From the NCBI GenBank assembly GCA_020849625.1, contig JADLFV010000031.1:1-64000 (forward strand): DNA of 64,000 nt. The letters are read 5' to 3'. Below, in pieces: positions 8,303 to 58,076 of the stretch (the first letter of the stretch is position 1; every line of letters begins with the position of its first letter). The stretch is from Phycisphaeraceae bacterium. Lineage in GTDB: Bacteria > Planctomycetota > Phycisphaerae > Phycisphaerales > Phycisphaeraceae. Position numbers and translations under genes: made by a program. Under the pieces are notes generated by a model, which searched no databases, was not told the DNA's origin, and saw nothing but the letters and a program-made list of their open reading frames with translations.

Positions 8303-8397
8303 GAAAGTGAAAAGTGAAAAGTGAAAAGTGAAAATATGAAGACCCGCCACGGGCAAACTTTGTGATTTTCACTTTTCACTTTTCACTTTTCACTTTG
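8303..8397. repeat. Heptad hairpin repeat, unit TGAAAAG
   Basis: Three to four TGAAAAG units, a spacer, then four complementary CTTTTCA units. It lies between convergent genes and encodes the last residues of Lgt (KVKSEK). It may serve as a bidirectional terminator. Confidence 0.85.
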
Positions 8398-9221
8398 CCT
8401 CCCCAACCCCCCATCGGCTCGCGCCGGCTGCGATGCAGGAACCACAACAACACCGCCGCGCCTGCGATCATGGCAGCGCTGAGCCATTGGCCTCGGGTGG
8501 TGCCGAATGGCTCAAAGCCGACCTGCTCATCGGGCTGGCGGAATTGCTCGCAGCAGATGCGGGCGATGGCGTAGCCGATCAGGAACACCGCACCCACGAA
8601 GCCCGGCTTGCGCGGCTTGCGGTAGAACCACAGCATCACCAGAAACAGCAGCAGCCCTTCGGTGGCAGCTTCATACAACTGTGACGGATGGCGCGGCAGC
8701 ATCTGGGGATCGCCGGGGAAGATGACCGCCAATGGGAAGTCGCGCGATACCGCTCGCCCCCACAATTCGCCGTTGACAAAGTTGGCGATGCGTCCGAAGA
8801 ACAAACCCAGCGGCGCGGCGAAGGCCATCAAATCCCATACGAACGGCACCGGCTGCTGGTACTTGCGGGCCAGCCACCAGCAAGTCAGGGCGCCGCCGAT
8901 GACGCCGCCGTGGAACGACATGCCGCCCTTGTTCAGCGCCAGCAGATGCCAGAATGGAATCTCCTTGCTGAACGTCCACAGCAGGGCCGGCTCATAGAAC
9001 AGCACGTATCCCAGTCGCCCGCCGATGACGATGCCCAAGGCCAGCGTTACCACCAGATCACCCGCCTTGCGATGATCCAGATCACATCGCCCCACCCGCA
9101 GCACGCGGCGAATCCACAGCCAGGCGATGAAGAACCCCACCAGGTAGGACAGGCCGTACCACCGGATCGGTCCGATGGCATAGGGTGAAAGGTCGTGATA
9201 GTAGAGGGCGAGGTTCATCAT
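8376..9221 (-). CDS. lgt: Prolipoprotein diacylglyceryl transferase
   Basis: Lgt transfers diacylglycerol from phosphatidylglycerol to the lipobox cysteine of prolipoproteins, the first step of lipoprotein maturation at the inner membrane. With start at 9221 the protein is 281 residues with about seven membrane helices. It carries the family signature GRIANFVNGELWGR (143-156) and the essential HGG motif (104-106). A nine-codon upstream extension (MCEQARTLN) overlaps a palindromic repeat and is unlikely. The C-terminal KVKSEK is encoded by the heptad repeat, a repeat-derived tail beyond the conserved fold. Confidence 0.95.
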   Translation of the reverse strand: MMNLALYYHDLSPYAIGPIRWYGLSYLVGFFIAWLWIRRVLRVGRCDLDHRKAGDLVVTLALGIVIGGRLGYVLFYEPALLWTFSKEIPFWHLLALNKGGMSFHGGVIGGALTCWWLARKYQQPVPFVWDLMAFAAPLGLFFGRIANFVNGELWGRAVSRDFPLAVIFPGDPQMLPRHPSQLYEAATEGLLLFLVMLWFYRKPRKPGFVGAVFLIGYAIARICCEQFRQPDEQVGFEPFGTTRGQWLSAAMIAGAAVLLWFLHRSRREPMGGWGGKVKSEK

Positions 9222-11835: not shown

Positions 11836-12186
11836 ATGACCGCCACCGAAGACATCCTCCGCCGGGCCCATGAGCTGGGCAAACTCATCGCCGATCATGA
11901 GGCGGTCCGGCAACTGAATCAGACGCTGGACAACCTGAAACAGGACACGGACGCCCAGCGCGCCTTGTCCGACTTCGAGCGCCACGTGCAGACGCTTGGT
12001 GAAAAGCAGGCGGCCGGCAAACCCATCGAGGTCGAGGACAAGCACAAGCTGCAGTCGCTGCAACTGGCGGTGGCCCGCAACCCGTTGCTGCGCGATCTGC
12101 AGGTGCAGCAGATGAATTACCTCGATCTCTTGCGTCAGGTGGACGAAGCGATGCGCCGGGAATATGAACCGGAGGAGAAGCTGTGA
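11836..12186 (+). CDS. YlbF/YmcA family (Com_YlbF) small helical protein
   Basis: 116 residues from ATG 11836, preceded by AAGGGG about 10 bp upstream; an in-frame ATG at 11794 falls next to a repeat. All-helical, with EDILRRAHELGKLIADHEAV at the N-terminus and VARNPLLRDLQVQQMNYLDL near the C-terminus, typical of the Com_YlbF family. In Bacillus these proteins bind RNase Y and affect mRNA processing. Here a link to RNA turnover is only suggested by divergent rnr. The stop codon lies in the following heptad repeat. Confidence 0.75.
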   Translation: MTATEDILRRAHELGKLIADHEAVRQLNQTLDNLKQDTDAQRALSDFERHVQTLGEKQAAGKPIEVEDKHKLQSLQLAVARNPLLRDLQVQQMNYLDLLRQVDEAMRREYEPEEKL

Positions 12187-12261
12187 GTTTCGAGTTTCAA
12201 GTTTCGAGTGTCGAGTTTTGCGCCAGGGAACCGAATTGAAAAACTCGAAACTTGAAACTTC
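12184..12261. repeat. Heptad hairpin repeat, unit GAGTTTC
   Basis: GAGTTTC repeated about four times, then complementary GAAACTC/GAAACTT units. It lies between convergent genes and overlaps the stop codons of both sides. Confidence 0.8.
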
Positions 12262-13366
12262 ACTGTCCCGCGGTCGCCAGGTCATCCTCGGTGAAGTTGA
12301 ACGGCGGCTGCATCAGCACGGCGTGCCATTGCGTGGCGGCCACCTGAAGAGCGCTCCAGTTCTTGCCGAAGGCTGCGGCATCGATGCTGGGCGGAGCGGA
12401 CACGCCGCTCTGGAGGGCCTCGTGAGCCTGCCGCAGCACCATATCGCACAGCTTGACCATCTCCAGATGATCGCGTTCGGTTTCTTCATCCAGGGCGGCG
12501 CCCGGGGTCTGCTTGGTGATCAACTCCATGTAACGGCAGGCCGCCCGTGCCAACTGGCGGAACGACTGATCCACCACCTGGCCGCTGGCTAAATCCACCT
12601 GGATTTTGCGAAGCAGCGAGCGCATGGCCTCGCGATTGGAGTCATATGTCAGCCTGGGTTTATCAACATGCTGCTTGATTTGCTCATTGAGGGCCTGCAG
12701 CACCTGATCCGCCGCGTCTTGCTCGATCAGCGCCAGCAGCAGTTGCCGCACCACTTCTTCGACCTGCTCCACGTTGACCTGTCGGCCGAGCGTGGTCACC
12801 AGCTTGTTCTTCTGCTCCTGGGCCAGATTGGACTCGCCCCCGCCGATCACCGCACGCACCGCCCAGTAGCGCACGGCCGGGTTCTCGTCCTCGATCCCCT
12901 TGAGGATCAGATTGATCACGTGGTCGTCCTTGATCAGCCGCGAACTGACGACCATCGTGTTCAAGCGCACCACCACCTGGCGGGCGGCTTCCTTCCGATT
13001 GGCCTGCTCATCGTCACCGCTGGGCGCGGCCGGCTTGTTCATGGCCGCCGAGGCATCCAGCTTGCGGGCAACGATCACGGAGTACTGCTCGTTGAACGTT
13101 TTGCTGCCGCCCTTTTCCATTGGCGCGACCAGTTCGTTGCGGCCGTCAACAATCGCGTCCTCCTGGCCGGAGACCAGTTGGTGGATGTAATAATCGACGT
13201 AGGACTCGACCGTCCTCAACTGATCCGCCGAAAACGGGCCATCGACCTGATACATCTCGGCAGGAATGGTGGGACGCGCCTGGTCCTGGGCCTGTGCCAT
13301 CACGACCACAAACATCGCGACAAGGACACATGCCCACCCAGCCATCGGCCATGAAGTGAACTTCAT
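12260..13366 (-). CDS. Exported hypothetical protein with HEAT-like helical region
   Basis: 368 residues. A signal peptide is visible (MKFTSWPMAGWACVLVAMFV, cleavage near AQA-Q at about 25-28). The mature part is helical; DENPAVRYWAVRAVIGG around 165-185 resembles a HEAT repeat, and conserved enzymatic motifs are absent. It probably acts in the periplasm as a binding or scaffold protein, but I do not recognise a family. The start is the ATG before the signal sequence; a longer frame adds seven residues that would spoil the signal. Confidence 0.7.
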   Translation of the reverse strand: MKFTSWPMAGWACVLVAMFVVVMAQAQDQARPTIPAEMYQVDGPFSADQLRTVESYVDYYIHQLVSGQEDAIVDGRNELVAPMEKGGSKTFNEQYSVIVARKLDASAAMNKPAAPSGDDEQANRKEAARQVVVRLNTMVVSSRLIKDDHVINLILKGIEDENPAVRYWAVRAVIGGGESNLAQEQKNKLVTTLGRQVNVEQVEEVVRQLLLALIEQDAADQVLQALNEQIKQHVDKPRLTYDSNREAMRSLLRKIQVDLASGQVVDQSFRQLARAACRYMELITKQTPGAALDEETERDHLEMVKLCDMVLRQAHEALQSGVSAPPSIDAAAFGKNWSALQVAATQWHAVLMQPPFNFTEDDLATAGQ

Positions 13367-15326: not shown

Positions 15327-16541
15327 TCACCGCAGCTTGATCGTCGCCAACGCCGCGGCGGCCAGCAGGGCGGTGATCAGCCAGAAGCGCACCACCACCT
15401 GCTGTTCAGTCCAGCCCAGCAGGTGGAAGTGATGGTGGATCGGGGCGCACTTGAAGATGCGCTTGCCGCCGGTGAGCTTGAAGTAAGCCACCTGGAGGAT
15501 GACGCTCAGAGCCTCGGTGGCGAAGATGCCGCCGATCATCAGCAGCAGAAACTCCTGGCGGATGACCACCGCGATGAAGCCGATCAGACCGCCCAGGGTC
15601 AGCGAGCCGGAGTCGCCCATGAACACCTGGGCCGGTGAGCAGTTGAACCATAAAAAGCCCAGGCACGAACCGACCATCGCCCCGGCCACGATCGCCAGTT
15701 CATCCGCCAATGGAATGAACGGCACCAGCAGTTTCTTGGCCAGGACGAAATTGCCGTCCTCGTAGCCGGCGATGATGCACAGCACCACGAAGGCGAAAGC
15801 CACGATCGCCATCACGCCGCCCGCTAAACCATCCATGCCGTCGGTCAGGTTCACCGCGTTGCTGGCCCCCACGATCACGATCACCGCCAGCAGCACGAAC
15901 GCACCCGTGCCCAAAACGATCAGGTTGGGTGACGGCTCCCAGCGGCCATCGACAAACACCCAGCTCTTGAGCAGCGGCAGGTTCAGGGCGTGGCTCATCT
16001 GCTTGATCTCGTCAAGCTCCAGCGGCCGCTTCTGATAGCCCCAATAGAAAATGAAGATGCCCAGCAGCAAGGCCAGACCCACCTGATAGACCAGCTTCTC
16101 CCAGGTATAGAGCCCCTCGCGGCGCCCGCTTCCGGGGGCCCGCCGGGCGCTGGTCAGCTTCAGCCAGTCGTCGATGGCCCCGATGGCGAAGAATCCGCCC
16201 ATGCACACCATGGCCATGCGGATGTAGAAGCTGCCCAGGTCCGCCAACAGCAGCACGGTGATGAAGATCGAAGCCACGATCAGGATGCCGCCCATGGTGG
16301 GCGTGTTGGCCTTGGTCTTCATCAACTGGTTGAGGTCTTTGTGATAGAACTCCGGCTGATCGCCGATCTTGCGGGCCAGCAGCCAGCGGATCGTCCGCTT
16401 GCCGCTGAGCACCACAATGGCGAAGCTGACCACGATCGCCACCACCGCCCGGAACTCCACGTAGCGGAACACCCGCAGCGGCGAAAGGAATCCGCCGCTG
16501 TCGATCGTGGGCCTGAGCAGTTCAATCAGCCAGTGCAGCAT
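15327..16541 (-). CDS. mraY: Phospho-N-acetylmuramoyl-pentapeptide transferase
   Basis: MraY makes lipid I at the inner membrane from UDP-MurNAc-pentapeptide and undecaprenyl phosphate. The protein is 404 residues with about ten membrane helices. Hallmarks are KANTPTMGG near residue 78, the aspartate pair AIDDWLKL, NLTDGMDGLAGG, FMGDSGSL and the histidine cluster PIHHHFHLLGW. Third gene of the leftward murE-murF-mraY run. Confidence 0.97.
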   Translation of the reverse strand: MLHWLIELLRPTIDSGGFLSPLRVFRYVEFRAVVAIVVSFAIVVLSGKRTIRWLLARKIGDQPEFYHKDLNQLMKTKANTPTMGGILIVASIFITVLLLADLGSFYIRMAMVCMGGFFAIGAIDDWLKLTSARRAPGSGRREGLYTWEKLVYQVGLALLLGIFIFYWGYQKRPLELDEIKQMSHALNLPLLKSWVFVDGRWEPSPNLIVLGTGAFVLLAVIVIVGASNAVNLTDGMDGLAGGVMAIVAFAFVVLCIIAGYEDGNFVLAKKLLVPFIPLADELAIVAGAMVGSCLGFLWFNCSPAQVFMGDSGSLTLGGLIGFIAVVIRQEFLLLMIGGIFATEALSVILQVAYFKLTGGKRIFKCAPIHHHFHLLGWTEQQVVVRFWLITALLAAAALATIKLR

Positions 16542-16555
16542 GGGGGTAGTCTAGT

Positions 16556-16650
16556 GCGTAGGCAGGTAGGCAGTAGGCAGTAGGGGTTCAAATTTGATGG
16601 CGTCCCGTGACTTCAAACCCTACAGCCTATTGCCTACTCCCTACTGCCTG
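16556..16650. repeat. Heptad hairpin repeat, unit GGCAGTA
   Basis: GTAGGCA/GGCAGTA units, spacer, then complementary TACTGCC/TGCCTAC units. It lies between murF and mraY and supplies the murF stop codon (CAG TAG). Confidence 0.85.
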
Positions 16651-17915
16651 AATCGTTCCTCGATGGCCGGGATCAGTCGCTCCAGTCTCATGGCACGCGA
16701 GCCTTTCAACAACACCAGGTCACCTTCGCGCAGCAGTTCCGCGACGCGGGTCGGCATGTCGGCTGCTTCCGCGTCGAAAGTGTGTTCACCTCCAGCCAGG
16801 CGGGCATCAGTGCCGATGGCGATCAACAGGTCCTGACTCTCACGCAGCTTGCGATAGTGCGCCCCCACCCGCCGATGTGCTGCGGCACTGTGCTCGCCCA
16901 GTTCACGCATGTCGCCCAGCACCAGCACCCGCCGGGAAGCCTTCTGAATCACCAGCAGGTCGATGGCTGCGATGGCGGAGTCGGGGTTGGCGTTGTAGGC
17001 GTCGTGGATCACCGTCACGCGCCCGAGGCGCATCGTCTGCCAGCGGCCTTCCAGCGGCGCCCCCGGAAGATCCGCCAGACGCTGCGCGATCAGCACGTCG
17101 TCTAAGCCCATCCACTGCGCCACCACCGCCGCGGCCTGGGCATTTCTTCGCATGTGCGCCCCCGGAAGAGGCAGGCGGCCGACCAGCGCGTCATCGGGTT
17201 GCAGATCGGGCTGCACCTTCAGACCGCCGGGCGCCACGTGATCGTAGAGCGAGCGTTTCTCTTTCTCGATGGCGGAGCGTGTGCCGAAGTTGCCGATGTG
17301 GGCCAGGCCGATGGTGGTGATGACCGCGGCATCCGGGCGCAGGATCTCGGCAAGCGGCGCGATCTCGCCGGGATGATTGGTGCCGACCTCGGCCACCACG
17401 AAGTCATCATCCGCGCGGGCGGCCAACAATGTCAGCGGCACGCCCAGGTGATTGTTGAAACTCTTGGGCGACTGTGTGCCGTGGAAGCGGGCGCTCAGCA
17501 GATAATGGATGAGATGGCGCGTGGTGGTCTTGCCGTTGGACCCGGTGACGGCAATCACCTTGCACCCCCCGGCCGCCAACTCCTTGCGCCAGGCGGAAGC
17601 CAGTAGCTGCAGGGCCTTGACGGTATCTTCCACCAGCAGCATGGGGATCGCCTCCGGGCTTCGGACTGGCCGCTTAAGCGGCCAGTCCAACGCGCGGGCT
17701 ACGATGGCGAAAGTTGCACCTTTGCTGATCGCCTGCTCCACGTAATCGTGCCCGTCGAACTGCTCGCCCTGGATAGCCACGAACACCTGCATGGACTGGA
17801 TGGTGCGCGAATCGATGCTCGCCCCCAGCAGCGGCGCATCCAGGTCGGCTGGCTCACGCAGCCAGCGACCGGCAATGATCTGAGCGAAGCGTCTTGGCGT
17901 CCAGAAGTCGGTCAT
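16641..17915 (-). CDS. murF: UDP-N-acetylmuramoyl-tripeptide--D-alanyl-D-alanine ligase
   Basis: MurF adds D-Ala-D-Ala to UDP-MurNAc-tripeptide in the cytoplasm. 424 residues from the ATG at 17915 (MTDFWTPRRFAQIIAG), with AGG upstream; the longer frame reads through a heptad repeat. The central domain has the ATP loop VTGSNGKTTT, then SFNNHLGVPLTLL and EVGTNHPGEI, and the C-terminal domain has DAYNANPDS. A perfect 24-bp palindrome (17664-17687) encodes part of the LDWPLKRPVRSPEA segment in the N-terminal domain, probably a tolerated insertion. Confidence 0.95.
   Translation of the reverse strand: MTDFWTPRRFAQIIAGRWLREPADLDAPLLGASIDSRTIQSMQVFVAIQGEQFDGHDYVEQAISKGATFAIVARALDWPLKRPVRSPEAIPMLLVEDTVKALQLLASAWRKELAAGGCKVIAVTGSNGKTTTRHLIHYLLSARFHGTQSPKSFNNHLGVPLTLLAARADDDFVVAEVGTNHPGEIAPLAEILRPDAAVITTIGLAHIGNFGTRSAIEKEKRSLYDHVAPGGLKVQPDLQPDDALVGRLPLPGAHMRRNAQAAAVVAQWMGLDDVLIAQRLADLPGAPLEGRWQTMRLGRVTVIHDAYNANPDSAIAAIDLLVIQKASRRVLVLGDMRELGEHSAAAHRRVGAHYRKLRESQDLLIAIGTDARLAGGEHTFDAEAADMPTRVAELLREGDLVLLKGSRAMRLERLIPAIEERFRQ
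17664..17687. repeat. Perfect 24-bp palindrome inside murF
   Basis: GACTGGCCGCTT followed by its exact reverse complement, in frame within the murF N-terminal domain. Resembles REP-type insertions seen elsewhere in this window. Confidence 0.85.
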
Positions 17916-17925
17916 GACGGTAACC

Positions 17926-18009
17926 TGATGGATGATCGATGATGGATGATGGATAGGCAGCGGTGTGATTTCACACATCATCCATCATCCATCATCCATG
18001 ATCCATCCT
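17926..18009. repeat. Heptad hairpin repeat, unit GGATGAT
   Basis: GATGGAT-type units on the left and four ATCATCC units on the right, with spacer containing TGTGATTTCACA. It lies between murE and murF and encodes the murE C-terminus (MDHG-stop). Confidence 0.85.
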
Positions 18010-19515
18010 TCCCCACTTCGCCAGCGCCGCGGCCGCATGCTCGCGATCATCAAAGTGAATCTTGCGCGTCCCGCCCGCCGCCGCGGAATCAGCGATGATC
18101 TGGTAGTCCTCGTGCCCCTTGCCCGCCAGCAGTACGGTGTCATCTGCTTTCGCCATCTCGATCGCCTGCCGGATCGCCGCCGCCCGATCGCGCTGCACGA
18201 TCACCGACTTGCCGGCCGCGCCTTGCATGATGTCAGCGATGATCGCATCGGGGTCTTCGCGGCGCGGATTGTCGCTGGTGACAATCACCACGTCCGCCAG
18301 TTCGCACGCCACGGCCGCCATCTTCGGCCGCTTGCTCCTGTCCCGATCGCCCCCGCAGCCGAACATGCAGATCAACCGCCCACGCACCGACGGCCGCAGC
18401 GCCTCCAGTACGTTCTTGAGCGCATCGTGCGTGTGCGCGTAATCCACGAACACCACCGGCAAATCCGTTCGCCCTTGCACTTCCACCCGCTCAAGCCGCC
18501 CCGGCACCTGCGGACAAGCCGCCAGCGCCTGCGGCAGAATGCTTGAAACATCCGTGATGCTGTGACTGGCTGCGATCGCCTGCAGCGCGTTGGACACATT
18601 GTGTTTTCCCACCAGCGGCAGCGCCGCATCCACCGCGCCCCACGGCCCGATGAACGTCACCTCGCTGCGCTCGCCGGTCAATTCGTGAATCGCGGCGAGG
18701 CAATACGGGCGAGCAAGCTCGCCCGCTAAACGTTTAGCGGCGGAGCTTGCTCCGCCATCCGTCATCCCTCCCACCGTCGTCCACACCACCGGCGCCTTGC
18801 AACCACGTGCCATGCGTTTGGCGTAGGCGTCATCACGATTGATCACCGCACAGGCATCGGCATCCAGTGCGTCGAACAGCTTCGCCTTGGCCTCGGCGTA
18901 CTCCTGCATGGTGCCGTGATAGTCCAGGTGATCGCCGGTGAGGTTCGTGAACACCGCGCTTGTGAAGCGCAGATGCGACGTGCGCCCCTGGTGCAAAGCG
19001 TGGCTCGACACCTCGCACGCCGCGGCCTGACAACCGTTGGCGACCATCCGCGCCAGGTAGCGCGAGAAGTCGATCGGCCCCGGCGTGGTCAACTCGGCCG
19101 GGCGTCGATCTGCCCCATCGTCGATGATCACCGTACCGATCAGACCGCAGGGCATTCCCGCGGCCTTGAGCAGGTGCTGAATCAGAAAGCAGATGGTCGA
19201 TTTGCCCTTGGTGCCGGTGACGCCGATCAGTTTCAGCCTGCTGCCCGGGCGGCCGAAGAAACGCTCAGCCAATTCGCCCACCACGCTCATCTGATCAGCC
19301 TCGATCACCGCGGCCGCCCCGCGCCTGATTGCATCTTCCACGTAGCGCCGCCCGTCAGCCTGCGAGCCCGGCCGGGCCACGAACGCGCAACCCACCGACG
19401 CCTGCCGCGAGTCGTCCACCAAGTCGCTCACCACCGTCTGCCCATCGCCGCGACTCAGGCGCACGTGCAGCCCGGCCGTCAACTCACTCAATGTCATGCC
19501 TTGCTCTGGTTTCAT
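17992..19515 (-). CDS. murE: UDP-N-acetylmuramoyl-L-alanyl-D-glutamate--2,6-diaminopimelate ligase
   Basis: MurE adds the third stem residue. 507 residues from ATG 19515 (AGGG about 9 bp upstream); ATG 19497 is an alternative. ATP loop VTGTKGKSTI, TTPGPIDF, EVSSHALHQGR, FTNLTGDHLDYHGT and the C-terminal substrate motif DNPR (SDNPRRED) are present. DNPR points to meso-diaminopimelate rather than lysine. An in-frame insert around residues 250-270 (GGASSAAKRLAGELARP) comes from a palindromic repeat at 18707-18760. First gene of the leftward mur run. Confidence 0.95.
   Translation of the reverse strand: MKPEQGMTLSELTAGLHVRLSRGDGQTVVSDLVDDSRQASVGCAFVARPGSQADGRRYVEDAIRRGAAAVIEADQMSVVGELAERFFGRPGSRLKLIGVTGTKGKSTICFLIQHLLKAAGMPCGLIGTVIIDDGADRRPAELTTPGPIDFSRYLARMVANGCQAAACEVSSHALHQGRTSHLRFTSAVFTNLTGDHLDYHGTMQEYAEAKAKLFDALDADACAVINRDDAYAKRMARGCKAPVVWTTVGGMTDGGASSAAKRLAGELARPYCLAAIHELTGERSEVTFIGPWGAVDAALPLVGKHNVSNALQAIAASHSITDVSSILPQALAACPQVPGRLERVEVQGRTDLPVVFVDYAHTHDALKNVLEALRPSVRGRLICMFGCGGDRDRSKRPKMAAVACELADVVIVTSDNPRREDPDAIIADIMQGAAGKSVIVQRDRAAAIRQAIEMAKADDTVLLAGKGHEDYQIIADSAAAGGTRKIHFDDREHAAAALAKWGRMDHG
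18707..18760. repeat. Palindromic repeat of the GAGCAAGCTCGCCCGCT family in murE
   Basis: GGGCGAGCAAGCTCGCCCGC, then CTAAACGTTTAG, then GGCGGAGCTTGCTCCGCC. Two hairpins joined by a palindrome. Same core as 9226 and 14310. Confidence 0.85.
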
Positions 19516-19644
19516 CACGCCCTGCCGTCGGCTGAACTTGATCAATTGCAGCGAGATTTTATCGGCCGAATCCGCGGCGAACGATTAACACCGCCCGCCG
19601 CACACCACCTTCAGTGCCCCTCACAACTTACCGATAACAATCCT

Positions 19645-20823
19645 GTGACGCACCGCGCTGACAAACCCATCGAAACGCTTCGCCTTTCCGCCGAGCAGAA
19701 GCAGCGCCTGGTGGCTCACGTCAACCAGTCCTACCAGAAGCCCGTGCCTCAGGAGCGGCGAAGTCCGCGCGTGCCCTACCTGGCCAAGGGCGCCATCATC
19801 GCTGTGCGGCAACCCAACGGCAACCTCTCGCGACATGCCGTGCTGACCCGCAACCTCTCCTCCGGCGGGCTGTCCTTTATGGTCGGACGCTTCATCTATC
19901 ACAACAGCCCCGCTGAGGTCATCCTGCCCATGCTCGACGGCCGCGGCATGATCATCACCGGCCGCATCGTCCGTTGCCGCCTGTTCGAAGGCATCATCCA
20001 CGAATGTGCCGTCATGTTCGACGAGGCGCTGGACATCAACCTGTTCGTCAACGCCAATAGCTCTCCACCTGTGGCTGTAGCCTCGGAGATCAACCTCGCC
20101 GACGAAGGCCAGAACGTGCCCGCGGCCGGACCGGCCATCAAGCCGCTGGTGCTGATCGTGGACGATTTCAAAAATGACCGCCGGCTGTTCTGCCTCTGGA
20201 TGGAAAAGCTCGGCTTCCAGACTCTCGAAGCCCACAACGTCGCCGGCGCCGAGAAGATCATCAGTGAAAATAACGTGGAAATGGCCCTGATCAACCGCAA
20301 GCTGGGCGACGAAGATGGCCTGGAGCTGGTCAAAAAGATGCGCAGCGACGGCTTCGGCGGACCCATCCTGGTGGCCTCAGCCGACGATGACCAGGCTTTC
20401 CGCGTTCACGCCCGCGGCGCCGGCGCCGACGAATACATGACCAAGCCGTTCGATCAACTCGACCTCAAGCTCGCCATCGATCGCCTGTTCACGCCCGGCG
20501 AGCCCAAGCCGCAACCCACCACCCCCATCCGCAGCGATCTGGCCGGCAACGACGCCATGAAACCGCTGCTGCGCGACTTTGTGGCCGGCCTGGGACAGAC
20601 CGCCGATCAACTCGATGGGGCCGACCCCGAGCAGGACCAGGACGCCATCGCTGACCTCTGCCTGGAACTCAAAGGTTCCGGCAGCGGCTACGGCTTCCCG
20701 CAGATCAGCAAGCTCGCCCTGCTCGTGCTCGACCAGTTGGAAACCGAGCAGACCGATGTCGAAGTCCTGAAGAAAACGGTCGTGGAACTGACCACCATGC
20801 TGCGGCGGGCCAAGGCGGAATGA
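19645..20823 (+). CDS. PilZ - pseudo-receiver - HPt-like protein
   Basis: 392 residues from GTG 19645; no upstream start is credible. An N-terminal PilZ domain (about 36-135) keeps both c-di-GMP motifs, RRSPR (38-42, RxxxR) and NLSSGG (70-75). A receiver domain (about 166-282) has the acidic pair D173-D174, S245 and K267, but the phospho-acceptor position is Asn217 (INRKLGDEDG) instead of Asp. The C-terminal part (about 300-390) matches the HPt fold by LELKGSGSGYGF (340-351), yet the histidine position is Leu340. The protein should bind c-di-GMP but could not take part in phosphotransfer itself, suggesting a signalling scaffold or a locked-state regulator. It is divergent from murE with about 130 bp between. 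Confidence 0.8.
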   Translation: MTHRADKPIETLRLSAEQKQRLVAHVNQSYQKPVPQERRSPRVPYLAKGAIIAVRQPNGNLSRHAVLTRNLSSGGLSFMVGRFIYHNSPAEVILPMLDGRGMIITGRIVRCRLFEGIIHECAVMFDEALDINLFVNANSSPPVAVASEINLADEGQNVPAAGPAIKPLVLIVDDFKNDRRLFCLWMEKLGFQTLEAHNVAGAEKIISENNVEMALINRKLGDEDGLELVKKMRSDGFGGPILVASADDDQAFRVHARGAGADEYMTKPFDQLDLKLAIDRLFTPGEPKPQPTTPIRSDLAGNDAMKPLLRDFVAGLGQTADQLDGADPEQDQDAIADLCLELKGSGSGYGFPQISKLALLVLDQLETEQTDVEVLKKTVVELTTMLRRAKAE

Positions 20824-20829
20824 GGAAGA

Positions 20830-20926
20830 AATGTCTAATGTCTAATGTCTAATGACCAGAGCACGCGCTCCTCCTTTAGGCATTAGTCATTAGGCATTAG
20901 ACATTAGACATTAGACATTAGACATT
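20830..20926. repeat. Heptad hairpin repeat, unit TCTAATG
   Basis: TCTAATG three times, loop, then seven complementary CATTAGA/CATTAGG units. Between convergent genes; likely terminator-like structure. Confidence 0.9.
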
Positions 20927-21121
20927 TCACGCACAGGCCCTCTGTGTCACGGCCGGCTCGGTCGTCTGCCTCACCCACACACTGTTGCGGCCGCGATGTC
21001 CGTTGAGGTTCAGCCGCGACAGGTAATCGCCCAGCGTCCGCTCGTCGAACGACAGCAGAAATTCATCCGAAGCCGAGCGGTTGCACTGGCGGATTTTTTC
21101 GATCATCTCACTCTTGCTCAT
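20927..21121 (-). CDS. Small hypothetical protein (64 aa)
   Basis: Begins MSKSEMIEKIRQCNRSASDE with a clear AGGAG seven bases upstream of ATG 21121, which supports translation. The N-terminal half is helical and acidic; the C-terminal tail is basic. No known family recognised. A longer frame upstream to 21211 reads through the ribosome site and is rejected. Confidence 0.65.
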   Translation of the reverse strand: MSKSEMIEKIRQCNRSASDEFLLSFDERTLGDYLSRLNLNGHRGRNSVWVRQTTEPAVTQRACA

Positions 21122-45456: not shown

Positions 45457-46487
45457 CCCCCGGAAGCTCAGCCCATGAAAATGCTTTCGGCGAGGCGTGC
45501 TTCAGCACGCCGGGGATCCCTCACCCCGCGCCCGGAACATTAGACAAGTTGCCGATCACAGCCATCGTGATCTTTCGCAACGAGCGGGAGTTGCTCGATG
45601 GTTGCCTGTGCGCGGTGCGGGCGCTGTGCGACCAGGTGATCGGCGTCGATATGCAGTCGAGCGACGGCTCGCGGCAGGTGGCGATGATCTACGTCGATCT
45701 GCTGCTGGAAGCGCCGCTCTATCCGATCGCCGAGCCGACGCGGGTGGCGGCAGCGAAATTCGCCAGGCACGACTGGATTCTGCTGATCGATCCTGATGAA
45801 CACATCCCCCGGAAGCTGGCGGATCAGATCCGGCAAGTGATGTCGAATGTCGAATGTCGAATGTCGAATGTGAAAAGTGATATCTCGGGCCTTGACACAT
45901 CAGCCATCCGGCATCCGCCATCCGCCATGATCGGGGCCATTCGCCTGCCTTGGTGGTACTACTTCAAGCGAAAGCGTCTGGACGGCACGATCTGGGGCGG
46001 CGGGCGCTCGACCAAGCGCATGCTGGTGCACCGCCGGCGATGCAACCTGCTGCCTTACTGCAACCGCATCGTTGAATTGAAAGATGGATACACGGAAATC
46101 ACCATTGAGCACGACACTTCCGGGGGTGGCGAAAACCACATCCGCCATTACTGGTGCGATTCCTATCGCAAACTGCTGCGGCGGCACCTGACCCGTTACT
46201 GCCACACCGAGGCGGCCGCCCAGGTTGCCAACGGCCAGCGCTTCAGTTTCAGTTACGGGCTCATCCATCCACTGCGCGAGCTGTATCGCTGCCTGCGCCA
46301 TTACGACGGCTGGCGGCTGGGCGTGCGCGGCTGGTTGCTCAGCGGCATCTATTTCCTGTACGTCCTGGCATCAAGCTGGCTCGTGCTGGCCTATCAGCGC
46401 AAGGGGCACACGGCGGAGGACTCGAAAGGCGCGGTCCCTACGCTCAAACAGATTCACCTCCAGGACGAATGGAGAAAAGCGGCATGA
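45453..46487 (+). CDS. Glycosyltransferase family 2 (WaaE/KdtX-like) with repeat-encoded inserts
   Basis: 344 residues from ATG 45453. The conserved core starts ITAIVIFRNERELLDGCL, with VIGVDMQSSDGS and WILLIDPDEHIPRKL (aspartates of the metal site), and a late GLIHPLRELYRCL and a C-terminal membrane helix. The first 30 residues (GEACFSTPGIPHPAPG) come from a palindromic repeat and residues about 128-160 (SNVECRMSNVKSDI...) from heptads; both are in frame. Probably active if these loops are surface exposed. Confidence 0.82.
   Translation: MTPGSSAHENAFGEACFSTPGIPHPAPGTLDKLPITAIVIFRNERELLDGCLCAVRALCDQVIGVDMQSSDGSRQVAMIYVDLLLEAPLYPIAEPTRVAAAKFARHDWILLIDPDEHIPRKLADQIRQVMSNVECRMSNVKSDISGLDTSAIRHPPSAMIGAIRLPWWYYFKRKRLDGTIWGGGRSTKRMLVHRRRCNLLPYCNRIVELKDGYTEITIEHDTSGGGENHIRHYWCDSYRKLLRRHLTRYCHTEAAAQVANGQRFSFSYGLIHPLRELYRCLRHYDGWRLGVRGWLLSGIYFLYVLASSWLVLAYQRKGHTAEDSKGAVPTLKQIHLQDEWRKAA
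45489..45515. repeat. GAGGCGTGCTTCAGCACGCC palindrome, copy 3
   Basis: GGCGAGGCGTGCTTCAGCACGCC hairpin inside the glycosyltransferase gene. Same family as in parB and terminase. One CCCCCGGAAG motif precedes it at 45457. Confidence 0.85.
45836..45930. repeat. Heptad repeat inside glycosyltransferase, units GAATGTC and ATCCGCC
   Basis: GAATGTC x4, spacer, then ATCCGGC/ATCCGCC x3. The two arms do not pair with each other, unlike other elements, as if two half-elements were joined. In frame. Confidence 0.85.
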
Positions 46488-57569: not shown

Positions 57570-58076
57570 ATGCTGAAAGGCGGGAAACCGAACAGCGCCA
57601 TGATCGCGCCAGACACGGACAAATCATTGCTCAAACGCCTGCACGGCATCGAGCAGGCCAGAGAAGTCCCCAACGATGAAAACCACCCGCGGATGTTCCG
57701 CCGCTTCGTGGTGCGGGGCGATGCCCTGCTGCATCCGATGAACCGCAGCCGCCTGGACGCCACGCCCGTCGATGTGAAGCTGCGCGATATCAGCCGCAAC
57801 GGCATCGGGTTCATCTGCAATCAGCCTCTGCCCATCAACAGTTGCTGGCGGATCGAGCTGCAACTGGCTGGTTATGCCATCGGTTCGCAGGCCCTGGTCG
57901 TCCGTCACGTCCGCGAGGTGGGCGACGGCATGTTCCTCTGCGGGGCCAACTTCGTCATCGACACCGCCCTGCTGGCCCTGCTGGGCGTCGAGCCTTCGCT
58001 GCTGGAGGAGCCGGAGGACGCTGGTCAACCCAACGTGCCCGACGACCACTTCGTCGCTCCGGGTGAAGTGGGATAA
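57570..58076 (+). CDS. PilZ-domain protein
   Basis: 168 residues from ATG 57570. A PilZ domain has RFVVR (RxxxR) and DISRNGIGF (DxSxxG), both c-di-GMP contact motifs, followed by CWRIELQLAGY and VVRHVREVGDGMFLCGANF. The tail is acidic and Pro-rich. Cytoplasmic c-di-GMP receptor; effector target unknown. It stands after a terminator, so it is transcribed separately. Confidence 0.85.
   Translation: MLKGGKPNSAMIAPDTDKSLLKRLHGIEQAREVPNDENHPRMFRRFVVRGDALLHPMNRSRLDATPVDVKLRDISRNGIGFICNQPLPINSCWRIELQLAGYAIGSQALVVRHVREVGDGMFLCGANFVIDTALLALLGVEPSLLEEPEDAGQPNVPDDHFVAPGEVG

Follow-up and report, generated by a model that had tools for sequence, protein, structure and literature searches.

What a receiver and an HPt-like domain might do in a protein where neither keeps the residue that would carry phosphate is the question raised by a gene in the 64,000-nucleotide stretch of Phycisphaeraceae bacterium DNA analysed here (the window), whose product is predicted to be a c-di-GMP sensor fused to two phosphorelay-type domains without phosphate-carrying residues. 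The gene (19645..20823, + strand) is an open frame of 392 aa, uninterrupted from a GTG start, a choice that matches homologues (KPIETLRL N-terminus), to a TGA stop. Its architecture, shared by homologues, comprises a PilZ domain (residues 36–127; 19750..20025, +; Pfam E 1.9e-5, over the cut-off), a receiver (residues 169–278; 20149..20478, +; Pfam Response_reg E 4e-17) and a four-helix HPt-like domain without a single His (about residues 306–391; 20560..20817, +). The Pfam Hpt match behind the last label (residues 308–391, E 0.0076) lies under the curated cut-off, and the label is backed by homology to the HPt tails of hybrid kinases and by a low-confidence model: AlphaFold2, run on this stretch alone in single-sequence mode, gave four helices (pLDDT 64), with an HPt, 3myf, as best PDB match (Foldseek, E 0.04). 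Receiver and HPt-like domain are joined by a linker conserved in the alignments (residues 294–308; 20524..20568, +; P294, S297, D/N302, M305 and P307-L308), and alignment of the window's clade identifies a conserved HPt motif, KGSGSGYGF, from K343-G344 to G350-F351 (20671..20697, +). A pseudogene was ruled out by the intact frame and the retained key residues.

At residue 217, where the receiver would accept phosphate, stands Asn (AAC, 20293..20295, +), and at residue 340, where the HPt His is expected, stands Leu (CTG, 20662..20664, +); alignment with homologues places both residues in the phospho-Asp and phospho-His columns. These substitutions had been pointed out in an earlier note on this DNA, together with the retention of DD173-174, S245 and K267 in the receiver, and codons, homologue columns and sequence bear out both observations. 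The possibility, also raised there, that another Asp or His occupies the active sites was pursued and a substitute ruled out, with no Asp in residues 214–220 and no His beyond residue 255. The domain retains the fold of a receiver together with its acidic pair, its Ser/Thr and its Lys (Pfam; Foldseek matches to receivers, target TM about 0.9) and lacks the phospho-accepting Asp, placing it among pseudo-receivers, that is, receiver folds without a key phosphotransfer residue; the HPt-like domain likewise lacks its phospho-accepting His. A full-length model was confident for the receiver (pLDDT >90), fair for the HPt-like bundle, with helices at 306–325, 332–346, 352–366 and 372–391, and poor for PilZ, and no confident receiver–HPt contact was found in it, its pTM of 0.42 making the domain arrangement unreliable.

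The PilZ motifs for c-di-GMP are complete, as the same note had reported (RxxxR 38–42, with R38/R42; NxSxxG 70–75, with N70/S72/G75), and their columns are near invariant across 73 homologues, as is H119, PilZ being the most conserved of the three domains in this comparison. From these motifs the domain is predicted to bind c-di-GMP, and the host genome encodes nine GGDEF domains, pointing to enzymes for making the ligand. With the phospho-sites absent and both the PilZ motifs and the other signature residues of the tail kept, c-di-GMP is the only known input still intact. A stand-alone PilZ-like protein of 168 aa, with a sub-threshold Pfam match, is also encoded in the window (57570–58073, +).

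How the two sites came to be lost was read from a survey of 60 loci with flanks and 73 aligned homologues, 71 of which contain both receiver and HPt and come from the same bacterial order. The host genome (4.82 Mb, 154 contigs) encodes a single PilZ-REC-HPt protein; matches, some of them partial, are present in 24 of 51 genomes of the taxonomic family and 104 of 201 of the order. Full-length PilZ-REC-HPt proteins were not found outside the order in a 294-genome sample of the phylum (E ≤ 1e-25; six candidates scored per genome), where matches in other orders were receiver or REC-HPt stretches; this confinement rules out a phylum-wide family. A contig search with the single protein as query returned receivers only.

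Position 217 is Asp in 47/71 homologues and non-Asp in 24/71; position 340 is His in five, the remaining 66 (93%) carrying mostly Leu, Gln or Arg. Both sites are lost in 23/71, with no association between Asp loss and His loss (Fisher P = 0.66, 71 homologues), and a tree from which both site columns (217, 340) were excluded requires a minimum of 15 changes between Asp and non-Asp and five between His and non-His. Rows nearest the window protein are mostly Asp-bearing; L130 shares the Asn, in contrast to L128 and L129, its Asp-bearing sisters, and Asn217 is restricted to a few scattered lineages. Since His is lost so widely and Asp mostly kept, the nearest rows included, Leu340 is, on these alignments, usual for the family, and Asn217 is a change at the level of the lineage. 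The simultaneous, coupled loss at both ends of a would-be relay proposed in the earlier note is not supported by these counts; for the Asp half, the nearest relatives show the outcome that the note had named as refuting it, and the homologue states rule out a recent joint loss. With His missing nearly family-wide and Asp only in scattered lineages, the window's among them, the two domains resemble a scaffold put to new use more than a relay dying at both ends together. Because most Asp-bearing relatives are without the His, the PilZ-fused form has, in most of the family, probably at no time relayed phosphate in two steps. For much of the family phosphorylation is probably important, as so many members keep Asp and some adjoin a hybrid kinase. 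Relative to published base rates of 0.9% of HPt domains without His and 2.0% of receivers without Asp (PMC12632262), both states are strongly enriched when counted by sequences, which are not independent events.

Kin of the tail are found in nine long proteins with weaker matches (L188–L196; 706 to 1232 aa), which share a similar linker and a KG[SA].GGYGF-type HPt motif and stand adjacent to the PilZ proteins in the tree, separated by a well-supported branch (98). The three checked by Pfam are hybrid histidine kinases, differing from the PilZ proteins in the HisKA/HATPase domains upstream, and all nine tails keep both Asp and His. By these likenesses the REC-HPt tail is homologous to hybrid histidine kinase tails; we infer the direction of descent, from kinase tail to PilZ fusion, from a tree rooted on the kinase-type tails. 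Best Hpt matches in the genomes of the family carried His in 28 of 28 readable cases (L248 was excluded, and L262 is itself a PilZ-REC-HPt protein).

Were PilZ the only part that matters, the REC-HPt tail would be drifting and Asn217 would mark one step of decay, an explanation that we consider unlikely though far from negligible. It would accommodate the few scattered lineages with Asn217 and their mostly Asp-bearing relatives, but random drift would not so selectively spare DD173-174, S245, K267, K343, G344, G350 and the linker, and the tail has acquired neither stop nor frameshift. The 19 rows of the window's clade and its surroundings keep K267 in 19/19, K343 in 18/19, G344 in 16/19 and G350 in 19/19, whereas column 340 is comparatively variable, ranking 17 of 84 in the HPt domain. 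Motif conservation is weaker across the whole family (K or R at 343 in 51/71, G at 344 in 41/71), and conservation of K343/G344 may simply serve the fold. In eight close homologue pairs, every domain gave dN lower than dS wherever the latter was computable (two dS values were not, and several were saturated), with PilZ the most conserved and the HPt-like domain evolving about as slowly as the receiver.

Relaxation would also be consistent with the content of the host genome, where neither a His-bearing HPt domain (all three HPt-like domains detected are His-less) nor CheW (E ≤ 0.01) was found, so that phosphorelay partners may be gone, although in an assembly 96% complete either may have been missed. 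Two of these domains lie outside the window: a REC-HPt protein on contig 105 (L218, 916–1812, +) carries Arg in place of the phospho-Asp and Asp in place of the Lys and lacks the HPt His, its loss of Asp and Lys adding to the case for decay, and a stand-alone HPt-like protein of 122 aa on contig 128 (L220, 1426–1791, −) has Gln at the His position. FliG is present here and in 30/30 genomes of the family examined. Many relatives in the family carry CheA-like HPt domains, in contrast to this genome with its FliG but no CheW match.

The gene neighbourhood bears on a further explanation. Divergent from the gene lie, by Pfam, a murE-type Mur ligase (17992..19545, −), a murF-type gene (16641–17981) and mraY (15327–16541), and the same layout was observed in 13 of 20 loci fetched from the taxonomic family, with an FKBP-type gene like that of the window following in five of these 13; nothing but position connects the gene with the cell wall. 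Elsewhere in the order, in other families, the gene has different neighbours, which at some loci include tandem copies and hybrid kinases. A tail lacking both Asp and His could bind a histidine kinase or receiver as a decoy, blocking or titrating a phosphorelay, with c-di-GMP setting its availability. Resemblance to hybrid-kinase tails, retention of HPt surface residues in the window's clade and the adjacency of some paralogues to hybrid kinases would suit such a role, which is nevertheless improbable for this gene, which is flanked by murE-murF-mraY and an FKBP isomerase and adjoins no kinase gene. In plants, the pseudo-HPt AHP6 reportedly blocks or titrates a phosphorelay; plant pseudo-HPt proteins are alike in being HPt-type without the phospho-His, and differ in serving a cytokinin relay without c-di-GMP or a receiver fusion.

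Directly behind the stop codon lies a pair of arrays of 7-base units (20830–20926), in a segment (20821–20945) that folds at −52.4 kcal/mol (z −8.5). The window holds 21 such tandem arrays (others include 8304–8398, 12185–12262 and 45840–45928), with zero in ten shuffles; several form inverted pairs about 30–80 bases apart, the heptamer changing between pairs.

Immediately before the lost His position stands Cys339 (20659–20661), present in 41/71 PilZ-REC-HPt proteins and in 0/9 hybrid-kinase tails. That distribution would be compatible with another chemistry at this site, such as redox or modification of the Cys, but 30 homologues are without it, and packing can explain it, as the residue it replaces is small, in kinases often Ala; we regard such chemistry as highly improbable.

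The reading to which the evidence leans, if modestly, is that of a c-di-GMP effector of PilZ type in which the inherited REC-HPt tail serves as an interaction module independent of phosphorylation. The PilZ domain would bind c-di-GMP, and a tail of hybrid histidine kinase type would have been retained for protein contacts. The HPt-like domain, its His gone since early in the family's history, would transfer no phosphate and instead offer a surface for docking or packing, and the Asp to Asn change in this lineage would leave a receiver that cannot be phosphorylated in vivo and should stay in its unphosphorylated state. Binding of c-di-GMP at PilZ would then be the sole switch, altering the contact of the tail, or of the entire protein, with a partner. 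Counted in favour are the loss of His in 66/71 with the KG..GYGF motif largely retained, dN below dS, the conservation of PilZ, the place of the tail next to the nine hybrid-kinase-type tails with complete sites, the nine GGDEF domains and the precedents of PixA and of pseudo-receivers; counted against are the retention of Asp in 47/71, the weaker family-wide conservation of K343/G344, the want of a confident receiver–HPt contact in the model and the dispensability of c-di-GMP binding by PixA for motility under the conditions tested. It is doubtful, if conceivable, that the mechanism extends to an order-wide family in which a c-di-GMP sensor captured a kinase-type REC-HPt tail and made of it a conformational module that works without phosphate, its HPt face docked against the receiver or a partner, with c-di-GMP, rather than phosphate, controlling a phosphorelay-shaped interaction.

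The closest studied relative is PixA, a PilZ-REC protein of Myxococcus xanthus, which binds c-di-GMP, is functional as D180N and not as D180E, and does not depend on c-di-GMP binding for motility under tested conditions (PMC8316039). It resembles the window protein in its N-terminal PilZ with c-di-GMP motifs, C-terminal receiver and orphan gene, and differs in keeping the phospho-Asp and in being described without an HPt-like domain (PMC8316039). Bacterial pseudo- or aspartate-less receivers, which can act through protein contacts, share the receiver fold without phospho-Asp and with other active-site residues kept; here, in contrast, the receiver is fused to PilZ and HPt-like domains, and Asp is lost in 24/71 as against the published 2.0% (PMC12632262). 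A separate census dropped part of its sequences for lacking His or Asp (PMC4558063).

The domain state is thus real and somewhat unusual, that of an order-level family which is a variant of PilZ response regulators, pseudo-receivers and His-less HPt domains. How pseudo-receivers work in bacteria has been called a 'mystery' in review (PMC12632262), and this family offers a natural test case for it. His-less HPt domains being rare (0.9%, PMC12632262), a family that is 93% His-less yet constrained is also a natural test of what the HPt fold does without phosphotransfer.
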